Positions 607 to 10,452 of a stretch of DNA of 10,452 nt are shown one piece after another. The DNA comes from Vicinamibacteria bacterium (GTDB taxonomy: Bacteria; Acidobacteriota; Vicinamibacteria; Vicinamibacterales; 2-12-FULL-66-21). The notes beneath the pieces are model-generated. The model searched no databases. It had not been told where the DNA came from and saw only the letters and a list, made by a program, of their open reading frames with translations. Each line of letters opens with the position of its first letter. The stretch's first letter is position 1. The DNA lies in the NCBI GenBank assembly GCA_025937075.1, contig JAICSD010000118.1, positions 1 through 10,452 of the forward strand, given 5' to 3'. The position numbers and the translations under genes were made by a program.

Positions 607-3600
607 ATGTTCAAGTTGCCGAGCTGGCCGGTGTTGACGCAAGCCGCGACGGGAGCGGACGGCACCGGTCCGGAGTCGATGAGCGCCGCCACCCGCGGGC
701 TGCGCCCTCGCACGGAAGGGACGGACGCCGCGCGTTCGGTGTGTCCGTACTGCGGCGTCGGATGCGGGCAGCTGCTCTTTCATCGCAAGGGCCGGCTCGT
801 GGCCGTCGAAGGAGATCCCGGATCCCCGATTTCGGAAGGACATCTCTGCCCCAAAGGCTCGGCGACATTCGAGCTTTTGACGCACTCCGGACGCGCGACG
901 CGCGTGAAGTACCGCGCCCCGTTTACGACAGCGTGGCAGGACATCGATCTCGAAACGGCGATGGACATGGTTGCCGATCGAGTCTGGCAATCGCGTGCCC
1001 GCCACTTCAGAGAGCGCGCCTCGATCGATTCGGAGCCCGACGCGCCGCTCATGCAGTGCCCCTCGATCGCGCACCTCGGGGGCGCCACCCTCGACAACGA
1101 AGAGAACTACCTGCTCAAGAAGCTGTTCACGGGAGGTCTGGGCATGGTTGCCGTGAGCAACCAGGCCCGGATATGACACAGCTCCACGGTGCCCGGTCTG
1201 GGCACCTCGTTCGGCCGCGGCGGGGCGACGACGGCGCAGCAGGACCTCGCCAACGCAGACGCGATCCTGATCATGGGATCGTCGATGGCCGAGAATCACC
1301 CGGTCGGCTTCCGGTGGGTCATCAAGGCGCGCGAACGCGGCGCGACGATCATCCACGTCGACCCGCGCTTCACCCGCACGTCGGCGATGGCCGACATGTG
1401 GGTGCCGCTCCGCGCGGGGTCTGACATCGTCTTTCTCGGCGCGCTGGTCAATTACGCCATCTCGCGGAATCTGATCTTCCGCGACTACGTCGTCGCGTAC
1501 ACGAACGCGCCGACGATCATCTCGCGTGAGTTTCGCGACACGGAAGATCTCGCGGGCTTCTTTTCCGGGTGGGACGCGGCGAAGCACCGGTATTCGCCGG
1601 AGTCATGGGCGTACAAGGGGTCGCGGCCAAAAGGCGGAGCGGACGCGACGGACCCGGACCGCGCAGGACACGCGAAGGAGCGCGGCGGCGAAGCGAGCGA
1701 GATGCCGCACGATCCGCCATCCGACCCCACGCTGCAGGACCCGCGGTGCGTCTACCAGATCCTGAAGCGGCACTTCGCGCGGTACACGCCCGAAATGGTG
1801 GAGGAGGTCTGCGGCGTCCCGGCCGGTGCGTTCCTCGGCGTCGCCGACGCGTTCTGCCGCGCGTCGGGTCCCGAGCGGACTGGCGCGATCTGCTACGCCG
1901 TCGGATGGACGCAGCATTCGACGGGCGTCCAGACGATTCGGACGGCGGCGATCCTGCAGCTCCTGCTCGGCAACATCGGCCGGCCGGGCGGCGGCATCCT
2001 CGCGCTGCGCGGCCACGCATCCATTCAAGGATCCACGGACATTCCGACACTCTACGACGTGCTGCCCGGGTATCTTCCGATGCCGCAGCTCGCCGAAGAA
2101 GGCCGCTCGCTCGCGGCGTACATCGAACGACACAAGCTGCCGCGCGGCTGGTGGAACAATCTCGACAAGTACATCATCTCGCTGTTGAAAGCCTGGTACG
2201 GCGGTGCGGCGACGGCGGCCAACGAGTTCGGCTTCGGCTGGCTTCCGCGCATCAGCGGCGATCATTCCCACTTCGGCTACTGGCTCGAGATGGCGGACGC
2301 TGCGGGCACGCTCGAAGGACTGTTCGTCATCGGCCAGAACCCCGCCGTCGGCGCGCCCAACGCGCGCCTGGAGCGCCGGGCGCTTGCGAATCTGCAGTGG
2401 CTCGTCGTGCGCGACATGGTGGAGACGGAAACGGCGACGTTCTGGCTCGATTCGCCGGAAGTGGCTCGCGGTGAATTGAAGACGAGCGATATCGCGACCG
2501 AGGTCTTCTTCTTCCCCGCTGCATCGCATGCGGAGAAGGAGGGCTGCTTTACCAACACCCAGCGCCTGCTGCAGTGGCACGAGAAGGCGATCGATCCGCC
2601 GGGCGACGCACGCAGCGAATCGTGGTTCGCGTACCATCTCGGGCACCGTCTCAAGAGCAAGGCGGCGCATGATCCGCGGCCGGGCAACGCGGGCCTCAAT
2701 GCGCTGACGTGGAGCTACCGCACGATCGGCTCGGACGACGAGCCGGACATCAACGACGTCCTGCAGGAGATCAACGGACGCCGCGTTGATGACGCGTCGC
2801 TGCTGCCCGGGTTCCACGCGCTCGCGAACGACGGGAGCACGCTGTGCGGCTGCTGGATCTATTCCGGTGTGTATCCTGCGCCGGATCGCAACCGCGCACG
2901 CGAACGGCGGCCATCGGGCAAGTACGGGCACGGATGGGGATTCGCGTGGCCGGCGGATCGGCGGATCCTCTATAACCGCGCCTCCGCGCGTCCCGACGGC
3001 AAACCGTGGAGCGAGCGCAAGAAGCTCGTGTGGTGGGACGAGGCTCGGCGCGAGTGGACGGGCGACGATGTGGCCGATTTCGGCCGGCAGAAAGCGCCTG
3101 ACTATATTCCTCCGCCCGACGCGCAAGGAGACGAAGCGCTGCGCGGCGACGCACCGTTCCTGATGCATGCCGACGGCAGGGGTTGGATCTGGGTCCCGAG
3201 CGGCCTCAAGGATGGCCCGCTGCCGGCGCACTACGAACCGCTCGAGTCGCCGGTCGCCAACCGCGTGTACCCGCAGCAGGAGAATCCCGTCGCCGATCCG
3301 AAACGGCGCCCTGACAATCAGTACGCAACATCACCCGGCGACGAGCGATATCCGCACGTGTTGACGACGTATCGCTTGACGGAACATCACACGGCGGGCG
3401 GCATGTCCCGGACGCTCTCGCATCTCGCGGAACTGCAGCCGGAACTGTTCTGCGAGATCTCGCCGGAGCTGGCGCGCGACATTGGCGCCGCGCACCGGCA
3501 GCGTGTCGTCATCTCCACGGCGAGAGGGTCGATCACTGCGCGGGCGCTCGTCACACGGCGCATCAGACCGCTGCGCGTCCAGGGACGGCTCGTGCACCAG

Positions 3601-3750
3601 ATTGCGCTCCCCTACCATTGGGGTCAGCGCGGTCTGGTCCGCGGTGATGTGGTGAACGATCTGCTCGCGATCTCCGAAGAGCCAAACGTGAAGATCATGG
3701 AATCGAAGGCGCTCGTCTGCCGGATCGATCCGGTGCGCAATGGCGGCTGA
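607..3750 (+). CDS. fdhA: Selenocysteine-containing formate dehydrogenase, catalytic alpha subunit (UGA 1174-1176 read as Sec)
   Basis: Catalytic subunit of a membrane-bound formate dehydrogenase: formate to CO2, two electrons passed to Fe-S clusters. Read through TGA 1174-1176 as Sec, the product is 1047 residues, close to E. coli FdnG (about 1015). C46, C49, C53 and C81 form the [4Fe-4S] motif (CPYCGVGC...CPKG). Sec190 sits in SNQARI-Sec-H, matching the FdnG active site NHARV-Sec-H, and is followed by the family motif FGRG and later AENHPVGFRW. The molybdopterin guanine dinucleotide-binding C-terminal domain spans about 915-1040 (TEHHTAGGMSR, LPYHWG). The start at 607 has AAGGGG 8 nt upstream; an in-frame stop at 544-546 rules out a long extension. 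No twin-arginine signal is present, and the MFKLPSWPVLTQ start resembles actinobacterial-type Sec formate dehydrogenases. Residues 338-373 are a charged insertion. The gene overlaps fdhB by 11 bp. Automatic callers will split it at the TGA. Confidence 0.93.
1174..1210 (+). promoter_or_regulatory. Bacterial SECIS element directing selenocysteine insertion at UGA 1174-1176
   Basis: The in-frame UGA is followed after exactly 11 nt by a hairpin: GGTGCCC (1188-1194), loop GGTCT (1195-1199), GGGCACC (1200-1206). An AC/GT pairing (1186-1187 with 1209-1210) can extend the base across a two-base bulge. The E. coli fdhF SECIS, as I recall it, also has an 11-nt gap and the same GGUCU loop, which is what SelB contacts. 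The stem lies in the coding sequence and encodes conserved residues after Sec190. The one departure is that the U usually bulged in E. coli faces an A here and can pair with it. Confidence 0.88.
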
Positions 3751-4543
3751 CCAGCGGACCACCGCGTTCCTCACGGACTCGACCCTGTGCATCGGCTGCA
3801 AGGCGTGCGAGGTCGCGTGCAAGGAATGGAACCAGGTGCCGAGCGACGGGTTCACCCTGACGGGCTTCTCGTACGACAACACCGCCGCGCTCGGCCACTC
3901 CACGTGGCGCCACGTGAAATTCGTCGAGCGCACGGGCGCTCTCGCCGGCCTCTCGAACGCAGACGCGGGGTATCGCAGCGCGTTTCGATGGGACTTCTCG
4001 TCCGACGTCTGCAAGCACTGCGAGCACGCCGGCTGCCTCGAGGCATGTCCGACCGGCTCGATCGTCCGAACGGAGTTCGGCGGCGTCTACATCCAACCCG
4101 ACGTGTGCAACGGCTGCGGCTACTGCATCGTCTCGTGCCCATTCGGCGTCGTCGATCGCCGTCCGGAAGATGGACGGGCGTTCAAGTGCACGTTCTGCTA
4201 CGACCGACAGAAGGCGGGGCTGAAGCCGGCGTGCGCCACGGCATGCCCGACCGAATCGATACAGTTCGGAACGATCGAGGAGATGCGCGCCAAAGCGCAC
4301 GCGCGGGTCGACGAGCTGAAGGACCGCGGCATCGACGACGCGATCGTCTACGATCCGGTCGACACCAGCGTCGGCGGAACGCACGCGATCTTCGTGTTCC
4401 GCGGCAAGCCGGAAGACTACAACCTGCCGTCCGCCCCCGACGTGCCGACCGTCCACCTGCGCAACGGCTGGTCGTCGGCCGCCATCGCTGCCGGCCTCAT
4501 GCTGATCGGGACCGCTGCCGCATTTTTCAGTCAGAAGTCATGA
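3740..4543 (+). CDS. fdhB: Formate dehydrogenase iron-sulfur (beta) subunit with C-terminal membrane helix
   Basis: Electron-transfer subunit that carries electrons from the catalytic subunit to the membrane subunit. All sixteen cysteines for four [4Fe-4S] clusters are visible: C17/C20/C23/C27 (CIGCKACEVAC), C91/C94/C99/C103, C123/C126/C129/C133 (CNGCGYCIVSC) and C150/C153/C165/C169. Residues about 246-263 (SAAIAAGLMLIGTAAAFF) form one C-terminal transmembrane helix, as in FdnH of E. coli formate dehydrogenase-N. The length, 267 residues, is close to that family. The ATG lies 11 bp inside the end of fdhA without a strong ribosome binding site, which points to coupled translation. Its stop overlaps the next start in ATGA. 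The assignment as the beta subunit rests on both sequence and operon position and is firm. Confidence 0.94.
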   Translation: MAADQRTTAFLTDSTLCIGCKACEVACKEWNQVPSDGFTLTGFSYDNTAALGHSTWRHVKFVERTGALAGLSNADAGYRSAFRWDFSSDVCKHCEHAGCLEACPTGSIVRTEFGGVYIQPDVCNGCGYCIVSCPFGVVDRRPEDGRAFKCTFCYDRQKAGLKPACATACPTESIQFGTIEEMRAKAHARVDELKDRGIDDAIVYDPVDTSVGGTHAIFVFRGKPEDYNLPSAPDVPTVHLRNGWSSAAIAAGLMLIGTAAAFFSQKS

Positions 4544-5436
4544 GTGAGTATTACGGCCTGCCGCTGCTGAAGGCCCCCGTGTGGACGTGGGAGATCCCGG
4601 CGTACTTCTTCGTCGGCGGCGCGGCGGGTGCAGCGGCGGTGATCGCGAATGCGGCGAAGCTCGCGGGCGGCCGCGACGATCTCGCCCGCGATGCACGATG
4701 GATTGCCGCGGCAGGCGGCATGCTGTCGCCGCCTCTTCTCATCGCCGATCTGGGGCGTCCCGAGCGGTTCCTGAACATGCTGCGGGTGTTCAAGCTGCAG
4801 AGTCCCATGTCCGTCGGCGTCTGGACGCTCGTCGGCTTCTCGAGCAGTGCCGCGGCGGCTGCGTTCGCGGATGCCGCGACGTCAGCGCTCGGCGAAGGCG
4901 TCCCGGTGCGGCTCGTGCGTGATGCGGCCGATGCGCTCGCCGCCGCAACAGGCCTCGTGCTCTCGACGTACACGGGCGTCCTGATTGGCGCGACGGCAAT
5001 TCCGGCGTGGTCGCAGAACGTGCGGCTCCTGCCGATCCACTTCGGGGCCTCAGGCGTCGGCGCCGCGGTATCGCTCCTCGAGTTGATGGGACACCGCGAT
5101 CCCGCGCTCAATCTGCTCGGCGCCGGCGCGGCGGCCGTCGAAACCTTGATCGGCGCCGGCATCGAGCTGCGCGACAGCCAGGCGCTCGCGCCGCTGAAGG
5201 AGAACGGCAGCGGCACGATCACGCGGCTTGGTGGATTGCTGTCAGGGCCGGTTCCGCTCGCGCTGCGGCTCTTCGCAGGCCGCTCGACGCACGCCCGCCG
5301 CGCGGCCGCCATCGCGACGCTCGCCGGCTCGCTGCTCACGCGCGTCGCCTGGATTGCCGCCGGCCGTGTGTCGGCTCACAAGAGCTCAGGAGATCAAGAG
5401 GGGATGACAGGAGACCAGGAGATCAAGAGGGGATAA
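4540..5436 (+). CDS. nrfD: NrfD/PsrC-family membrane subunit of the formate dehydrogenase
   Basis: Integral membrane subunit, probably the quinone-reacting anchor of the complex. The 298-residue product is strongly hydrophobic with about eight possible membrane segments; the clearest are near 17-42, 53-72, 88-112, 130-155 and 165-185. The N-terminal APVWTWEIPAYFFVGGAAGA and LLIADLGRPERFLNMLRV are typical of the NrfD/PsrC family. That family lacks haem, unlike the cytochrome b556 gamma subunit of E. coli formate dehydrogenase-N. The ATG overlaps the fdhB stop (ATGA). The last 16 residues or so (S283-G298, GDQEGMTGDQEIKRG) are encoded by a 29-bp tandem repeat in which the stop codon lies, so the tail is probably not conserved and may vary between strains. 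No further operon gene follows. Confidence 0.9.
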   Translation: MSEYYGLPLLKAPVWTWEIPAYFFVGGAAGAAAVIANAAKLAGGRDDLARDARWIAAAGGMLSPPLLIADLGRPERFLNMLRVFKLQSPMSVGVWTLVGFSSSAAAAAFADAATSALGEGVPVRLVRDAADALAAATGLVLSTYTGVLIGATAIPAWSQNVRLLPIHFGASGVGAAVSLLELMGHRDPALNLLGAGAAAVETLIGAGIELRDSQALAPLKENGSGTITRLGGLLSGPVPLALRLFAGRSTHARRAAAIATLAGSLLTRVAWIAAGRVSAHKSSGDQEGMTGDQEIKRG

Positions 5437-5483
5437 CAGGAGATCAGGAGATCAGGAGGGGATAACAGGAGATCAGGAGAGAG
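5387..5483. repeat. 29-bp tandem repeat, 3.3 copies, holding the nrfD stop codon
   Basis: Copies lie at 5387-5415, 5416-5444 and 5445-5473, with a partial copy at 5474-5483. Each reads CAGGAGATCAAGAGGGGAT, then RA, then CAGGAGAY, with only A/G and C/T changes between copies. The unit is itself built from the octamer CAGGAGAT. Because 29 is not a multiple of three, each copy shifts frame, and the nrfD frame meets TAA in the second copy (5434-5436). The array separates nrfD from the converging regulator gene. There are no variable spacers. Confidence 0.9.
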
Positions 5484-10121: not shown

Positions 10122-10138
10122 CGAGCGCGCAGCGCTCG
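10122..10138. other. Perfect 7-bp hairpin CGAGCGC-GCA-GCGCTCG
   Basis: A perfect inverted repeat with a 3-base loop lies in the spacer between the ABC permease end and the M61 start. It follows a first, partial copy of the adjacent repeat (TCCGGTATTGAC at 10111-10122). It lacks a U-tract in either direction, so it is at best an atypical terminator of the permease transcript or a stabiliser of its 3' end. Confidence 0.45.
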
Positions 10139-10139
10139 C

Positions 10140-10204
10140 CCGGCATTGACCATCGTCAGTCCCCGGCATTGACCATCGTCAGTCCGGCATTGACACGTAT
10201 CAGT
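10140..10204. repeat. 21-bp tandem repeat of small dyads (three copies), overlapping the permease stop
   Basis: Units lie at 10140-10160, 10163-10183 and 10184-10204, each starting CCGG. Units one and two share CATTGACCATCGTCAGT exactly; the third keeps CATTGAC and TCAGT but differs between them. Each unit contains ATTGAC-CATC-GTCAGT, a 6-bp stem with one T-G pair and a 4-base loop. The third unit contains the TGA stop of the permease gene (10200-10202, minus strand). This is a small array of REP-like hairpins at a 3' end. Confidence 0.75.
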
Positions 10205-10452
10205 CAGCCCGCACCCATCGCCACATCTCCCCCAGCGTTGCCGCCTTTCCCTGCATCAGGAGCCCCGTCCGGAAGATCTTTCCGGCGGCGTAAACGGCCG
10301 CCATCACCGTGAGCACGGTCACCGTGACCGAGGCGGCGACCTGCCAGCCTGGCGGTCCCGGGGGAACGGCGATACGCATCAGCATCAAGAACGGAGACGC
10401 GGTGGGAATCATCGACAGCGCCACGGCCATGGGACTGTCCGGCGCCTTCGCG
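10200..10452 (-). CDS. ABC-2/NatB-type transporter permease, C-terminal part (gene cut by right window edge)
   Basis: Only the last 83 residues are in the window; the frame is open to the right edge and no start is assigned. The visible sequence starts AKAPDSPMAVALSMIPTASP and continues FLMLMRIAVPPGPPGWQ, which matches the conserved segment near the end of NatB-like ABC-2 permeases (a small-residue, Pro-rich stretch followed by FLMLMR). One transmembrane helix follows (VAASVTVTVLTVMAAVYAAG), then the typical tail KIFRTGLLMQGKAATLGEMWRWVRAD. Such permeases work with a cytoplasmic ATPase to export sodium, drugs or other substrates; the substrate cannot be told here. The family call is from recognition of the tail and is fairly sure. 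The stop lies inside a tandem repeat. Confidence 0.82.
   Translation of the reverse strand, partial: AKAPDSPMAVALSMIPTASPFLMLMRIAVPPGPPGWQVAASVTVTVLTVMAAVYAAGKIFRTGLLMQGKAATLGEMWRWVRAD

Follow-up and report, generated by a model that had tools for sequence, protein, structure and literature searches.

A TGA-split fdhA gene from Acidobacteriota is very probably an intact selenocysteine formate dehydrogenase gene in an fdhA-fdhB-nrfD operon

In bacteria, the selenocysteine (Sec) insertion element (SECIS) is located immediately after the UGA within the coding region and has a small apical loop with a G, as described in a passage of PMC1088965. A section of PMC1794560 lists FdhA among the most widespread bacterial selenoproteins, found in 67 of the 75 organisms that use Sec, and for Acidobacteria gives three selenoprotein families with four proteins as of 2006. 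A test set from 2025 contains three known selenoprotein genes of Occallatibacter riparius (Acidobacteriota), according to a passage in PMC12013277, and one of the loci used below (L029) comes from another Occallatibacter. From these two sources, Sec use in Acidobacteriota and Sec in the FdhA family are already established. For quinone-linked formate oxidation, a passage of PMC8076601 describes FqoABC, a tentative formate:quinone oxidoreductase composed of two FdnGH-like peripheral subunits and one NrfD-like membrane subunit. FqoC is named there in Actinobacteria, Chlorobi, Crenarchaeota, Chloroflexi, and Deltaproteobacteria, Acidobacteria not being mentioned in that passage, and the main text of the paper does not contain the word selenocysteine. 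It was the sole relevant source on FqoABC or FqoC found in the open-licence literature, and, judged by title, no publication retrieved from that literature was devoted to an acidobacterial Sec formate dehydrogenase.

In this study, a stretch of 10,452 nucleotides from a Vicinamibacteria bacterium was analyzed, which is referred to as the window. An fdhA gene interrupted by an in-frame TGA is followed in the window by two further genes (Table 1). The gene is very probably a real and intact gene of a Sec formate dehydrogenase. This reading is based on family cut-offs passed only by the joined protein, a TGA shared with relatives, covariation in the stem of a hairpin, purifying selection, and sel genes in the genomes of relatives.

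Table 1. Coordinates and predicted roles of the features at the fdhA locus in the window
Feature	Position	Strand	Remarks
fdhA (catalytic subunit, probable selenocysteine formate dehydrogenase)	607..3750	+	predicted single gene, 1047 aa, Sec190
Predicted selenocysteine 190 codon TGA	1174..1176	+	TGA common to best loci; Cys/X in aligned homologues
SECIS-like hairpin	1188..1206	+	7-bp stem GGTGCCC/GGGCACC; loop GGTCT 1195-1199
GTG (Val195), probable false start of 853-aa gene in standard calling	1189..1191	+	
Predicted true fdhA stop (TGA)	3748-3750	+	
fdhB (iron-sulphur electron-transfer subunit)	3740..4543	+	one predicted C-terminal membrane helix
nrfD-like gene (membrane subunit, Pfam NrfD)	4540..5436	+	overlaps fdhB end

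The list of open reading frames contains ORF 607-1176 and ORF 1189-3750, which share one frame and are separated by the TGA in the context NQARI-TGA-HSSTVPGLGTSFGRGG. Reading through from 607 to 3750 yields one protein of 1047 residues with the TGA as codon 190. The joined FdhA exceeded the cut-offs of both curated profiles for formate dehydrogenase alpha subunits, NF041513 (1562.5 bits with a cut-off of 1400, residues 4-1045) and TIGR01553 (887.1 with a cut-off of 814.2), whereas each half alone remained under the cut-offs of both. This bears out an earlier sequence-only reading, according to which the TGA divides two halves of one formate dehydrogenase. The protein has the [4Fe-4S] motif CPYCGVGC at residues 46-53, and a phmmer comparison with solved structures retrieved formate dehydrogenases named 'alpha subunit, selenocysteine-containing'. 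In these alignments, the residue opposite codon 190 is X (non-standard) in 8cm4_A and C in 9qm0_A. An alignment to FdnG and to Cys homologues, as the earlier reading had suggested, gave an E-value of 1.1e-200 with the nitrate-inducible formate dehydrogenase 1kqf_A and placed Cys at the site in 9qm0_A as well as in the database proteins P0024 and P0035. In comparisons with six relatives, in which 54-65% of the synonymous sites differed, pN/pS (Nei-Gojobori) was 0.24-0.36 for the upstream half of fdhA and 0.22-0.37 for the downstream half. The similar values indicate similar purifying selection on both halves, in agreement with the proposal that the gene is intact.

For the codon itself, genome contigs were scanned for fdhA relatives, and the best 80 of 313 were kept. 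All 80 loci have TGA at the aligned codon, which strengthens its assignment as a Sec codon; by record title they include Acidobacteriota, Actinobacteria, Chloroflexi, Eremiobacterota, and some others. Among 193 genomes of the class to which G043, the genome of the closest syntenic relative, belongs, at least five contain a relative that is at least 70% identical along most of its length, with TGA at the codon in 5/5. In 250 genomes of Terriglobia searched with P0035 as query, the matches listed include 17 genomes with a relative of at least 53% identity reaching the site, and TGA was found in 17/17 (six of these genomes also belong to the 80 loci); a 71% fragment in the Terriglobia genome G384 ends short of the Sec site. 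P0024 and P0035, known here as protein sequences, are full-length and have Cys at the site (2/120 among the best of 7,995 database proteins), so Sec may be replaceable. The site thus shows a mark of bacterial selenoprotein genes, an in-frame UGA aligned with Sec or Cys in homologues. A further genome of the G043 class, G125, has at G125:C186:2788-3144 a fragment with 80% identity that corresponds to residues 162-280 and contains two TGA codons in frame, possibly a decayed copy or an assembly error.

That a standard caller would split the gene had been predicted, and this is what the database entries look like: among the best 120 of 7,995 relatives, 118 begin beyond the TGA, with 111 starting at the equivalent of GTG 1189 (VPGLGT, MPGLGT, or a close variant) and seven further downstream; two are full-length with Cys. 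In the 118 entries, both the N-terminal region and the active-site residue are missing. Taken literally, the annotation of the 111 entries describes two separate subunits, with termination at the TGA and re-initiation at GTG 1189, and ORF 1189-3750 does begin with GTG. We consider this very unlikely. The sequence ahead of 1189 (GGATATGACACAGCTCCAC) shows no purine-rich ribosome site, the GTG is located inside the stem of the hairpin, the break falls on the residue aligned with the X of the solved 8cm4_A, and the Cys-bearing relatives P0024 and P0035 are one chain. Two-subunit translation from GTG 1189 was rejected on the missing ribosome site, the 8cm4_A alignment, and the single-chain Cys relatives. 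Since UGA recoding in E. coli is put at 30-40% in a passage of PMC4513850, some termination at the UGA is to be expected; the truncated chain made in this way would be without the active-site residue.

Under the reading of fdhA as one Sec-encoding gene, the sequence after the TGA should carry a SECIS. The gap between TGA and hairpin is exactly 11 nt (1177-1187), and the arms GGTGCCC (1188-1194) and GGGCACC (1200-1206) enclose the loop, so that gap, 7-bp stem, and GGTCT loop (1195-1199) are as first reported; TGA and hairpin together extend over 1174-1206 and not, as given at that time, over 1174..1210. Folded alone, the 19-nt hairpin reached -13.4 kcal/mol (z -3.63), and 0/200 shuffles were as stable. 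For the 40 nt from the TGA onward, z was -1.46 (17/200 shuffles as stable), and in an 81-nt context the folding energy was not unusual (z +0.66, 148/200), so it is covariation, not stability, that speaks for the hairpin. The hairpin 1188-1206 is the sole element in the centroid of the 81-nt fold. At E<=5, Rfam gave a single match in the window, SECIS_3 (RF01989; 1171-1229, E 4.7e-7). Its 42.3 bits do not reach the gathering score of 63 bits, and for this reason the element was filed as SECIS-like and not as SECIS_3. Scores under the gathering score were also obtained in the four relatives that SECIS_3 lists, L160, L001, L159, and L002 (L159 and L160 are the regions surrounding the L096 and L097 genes). 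The window hairpin is a SECIS-like element that would work in the same way as SECIS_3.

Covariation was counted in 82 sequences, namely the 80 loci (best 80 of 313), L097, and the window; L096, which has the same TGA and hairpin, was left out. In three of the stem pairs, both partners are third codon positions; with the T of the TGA counted as 0, these are Val-Gly 17-29, Pro-Leu 20-26, and Thr-Thr 14-32. Watson-Crick pairs were found in 79/82 sequences for Val-Gly (36.3 expected, z 11.1), in 82/82 for Pro-Leu (74.4 expected, z 8.8), and in 56/82 for Thr-Thr (35.2 expected, z 6.6). These are the strongest covariations among 1,881 third-position pairs, the best of the other 1,878, which are 3 to 57 nt apart, having a z of 4.4. 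The shuffle ignores relatedness, but the 1,878 other pairs share it and therefore act as a control. All four Watson-Crick types occur at the Val-Gly pair. The outermost pair, Thr-Thr, is the weakest and does not form even G-U in 22/82 sequences. In an alignment of 24 sequences picked for diversity, 95.2% of cells were paired, compared to 28.6-51.8% for structures slid by 1-3 columns, and the covariation score was 0.350 compared to 0.094 for shuffled alignments (reached by 0/500). Three of five measures exceeded all 500 shuffles in this alignment, and two were within the shuffles (pairs changed on both sides, 182/500; further pair types, 25/500). The loop is GGTCT in 62 of the 82 sequences, AGTTT in 11, AGTCT in eight, and GGGCT in one; of the 63 sequences with Gly at residue 197, 62 encode it by GGT, compared to 12.3% of 8,365 other Gly codons in the same reading frames. 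Judged from these synonymous changes, the hairpin is under selection, and a conserved stem-loop immediately after the UGA, as known from bacterial selenoprotein genes, is present. The synonymous covariation supporting the SECIS of the window is unusually clear, and the three synonymous stem pairs uphold the SECIS hairpin proposed at the outset. The single GGGCT loop, at L043:10568-10610, belongs to the locus of G043, the other 81/82 sequences having GGTCT, AGTTT, or AGTCT; this element had no SECIS_3 match at E<=1.

The TGA might also be a nonsense mutation or a sequencing error, fdhA then being a pseudogene or an artefact. The two partial genes obtained from a standard caller and the Cys at the site in 2/120 database relatives (best of 7,995) fit this idea, which we nevertheless regard as highly improbable: the codon is common to 80/80 loci (best 80 of 313) from separate genome records, selection is purifying on both sides of the TGA, and the hairpin directly 3' of it is conserved at synonymous sites. 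The finding of the same TGA in separately assembled genomes and the purifying selection on both halves led to the rejection of this explanation. A genome-wide change of code that gives TGA an ordinary amino acid, as in genetic codes 4 or 25, would account for a frame that is open when TGA is read as a residue, but it is the least probable of the alternatives and was rejected because of true TGA stops within the same operon (fdhA at 3748-3750 and fdhB at 4541-4543, both near the ends of the family profiles), with the MocR, TrxB-like, and M61 genes matching their families in ordinary open frames and the hairpin being left unexplained.

Sec insertion requires the sel genes, which were sought in 50 genomes of relatives (loci L001-L050 of the 80) and in 14 control genomes. 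At E<=0.001, selB and selD each matched in 14/14 controls and selA in 4/14, with scores over the cut-off in two, two, and one of them, so only counts over the cut-off were used. On this basis, selA was present in 47/50 genomes, selB in at least 46/50, and selD in at least 45/50; among the matches listed, selA was absent over the cut-off in three, selB in four, and selD in five of the 50. The tRNA-Sec model RF01852 matched in 14/14 controls and passed the Rfam cut-off in 5/14; consequently, only hits of at least 61.4 bits were counted and weaker ones were set aside. Such hits occurred in at least 40/50 genomes, while at least 43/50 passed the Rfam cut-off. The 10/50 genomes without a strong tRNA-Sec among the matches listed are all metagenome-assembled genomes (MAGs), and incompleteness is a likely reason. 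Both G001 and G043 have selA, selB, selD, and tRNA-Sec(UCA), and ARAGORN reported tRNA-Sec(tca) in 6/6 regions given, including those of G001 and G043. Another close relative, G002, has selB and selD, no match to selA, and no strong tRNA-Sec among the matches listed. One in-frame TGA is present in 38/45 selD genes; in the translated genes of G001 and G043 it lies between CAG and ASK near the N-terminus, which we take to be the known Sec site of SelD. The window's own organism would, by analogy with these relatives, possess the sel genes as well. A second formate dehydrogenase-like gene with about 43% identity and one in-frame TGA in its first stretch was observed at G043:C84:39422-42517; besides Sec-SelD, G043 may thus produce two or more formate dehydrogenases with Sec.

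The start of fdhB overlaps the end of fdhA, and its stop is an ordinary TGA (4541-4543). A homologue of fdhB directly follows fdhA in 71/80 loci, and an nrfD homologue is in the corresponding place in 67/80 (best 80 of 313 in both cases; some loci are cut by contig ends). The locus L043, from 'Acidobacteria bacterium isolate gp6 AA36', is syntenic with the window and has fdhA-fdhB-nrfD as well as the three genes that come next, for a MocR-type regulator (85% identity), a TrxB-like protein (77%), and an M61 peptidase (73%); group 6 (gp6) presumably corresponds to Vicinamibacteria. The three genes very probably represent an FdhAB-NrfD (formate:quinone-type) operon of Acidobacteriota. Upstream, a divergent gene on the minus strand (1-486) encodes a small membrane-anchored cytochrome c (Pfam Cytochrome_CBB3) and runs off the window; weak homologues (33-34% identity) were found in only 2/82 loci, L077 and L080, thousands of bases from fdhA. 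By eye, a unit like ggggataacaggagatcaggaga was seen to recur in short, imperfect tandem copies at 5390-5480, near and beyond the end of the nrfD-like gene, and in the intergenic region 10138-10205 ccggcattgaccatcgtcagt occurs twice, with a third copy in variant form.

Taken together, we assign a probability of roughly 0.96 to the reading of an intact operon in which Sec would be inserted at UGA 1174-1176 of fdhA via a SelB-bound hairpin and electrons would pass to quinone. SelB, bound to the hairpin 1188-1206, would deliver Sec-tRNA(Sec) with the anticodon UCA to the UGA, Sec would enter at residue 190, and translation would continue to 3750. Sec190 would sit at the Mo/W active site of the formate dehydrogenase, from which electrons would flow via the iron-sulphur clusters of FdhB to quinone at the NrfD-like subunit. 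In this scheme, we infer Sec insertion, SelB binding, formate as substrate, the cytoplasmic orientation, and quinone as acceptor.

The analysis of the window recovers an enzyme, very probably intact, whose gene is split by automatic gene calling. Where formate oxidation and selenium use in Acidobacteriota are counted from such truncated entries, the numbers may be underestimates. The covariation at synonymous sites provides a clean worked example of how a Sec codon can be distinguished from a broken gene from sequence alone. More tentatively, and at somewhat less than even odds, the NrfD-anchored formate:quinone oxidoreductases of Acidobacteriota and the other phyla seen here (by record title) could constitute a large, mostly Sec-dependent branch hidden in databases by N-terminal truncation, with a bulge-free class of SECIS (7-bp stem, RGUYU loop) and a matching SelB. 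If so, the availability of selenium would set a limit to formate respiration where these organisms live.

Compared to known systems, the likeness to FdnG, the alpha subunit of formate dehydrogenase-N, stands in part. The joined FdhA passes the TIGR01553 cut-off and aligns to 1kqf_A, as the sequence-only reading had implied; it fits NF041513 (formate_DH_Act) better, and the membrane subunit is NrfD-like. FdnG carries a Tat signal and the FdnI membrane subunit is a cytochrome b, whereas no twin-arginine (RR) motif was found in the first 45 residues of the window FdhA, which in this respect differs from the alpha subunit of FdnGHI. The 'Act' in the name of NF041513 suggests Actinobacteria, and the window FdhA would be an acidobacterial member. 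With E. coli fdhF and SECIS_3, the hairpin shares the placement after the UGA and the small apical loop with a G; the SECIS of E. coli fdhF has a bulged U, whereas the stem in the window is an uninterrupted 7 bp. The gene cluster resembles FqoABC in its FdnGH-like pair and NrfD-like membrane subunit, FqoC having eight transmembrane helices and the NrfD-like subunit of the window three strong hydrophobic segments in a crude Kyte-Doolittle scan at one threshold.
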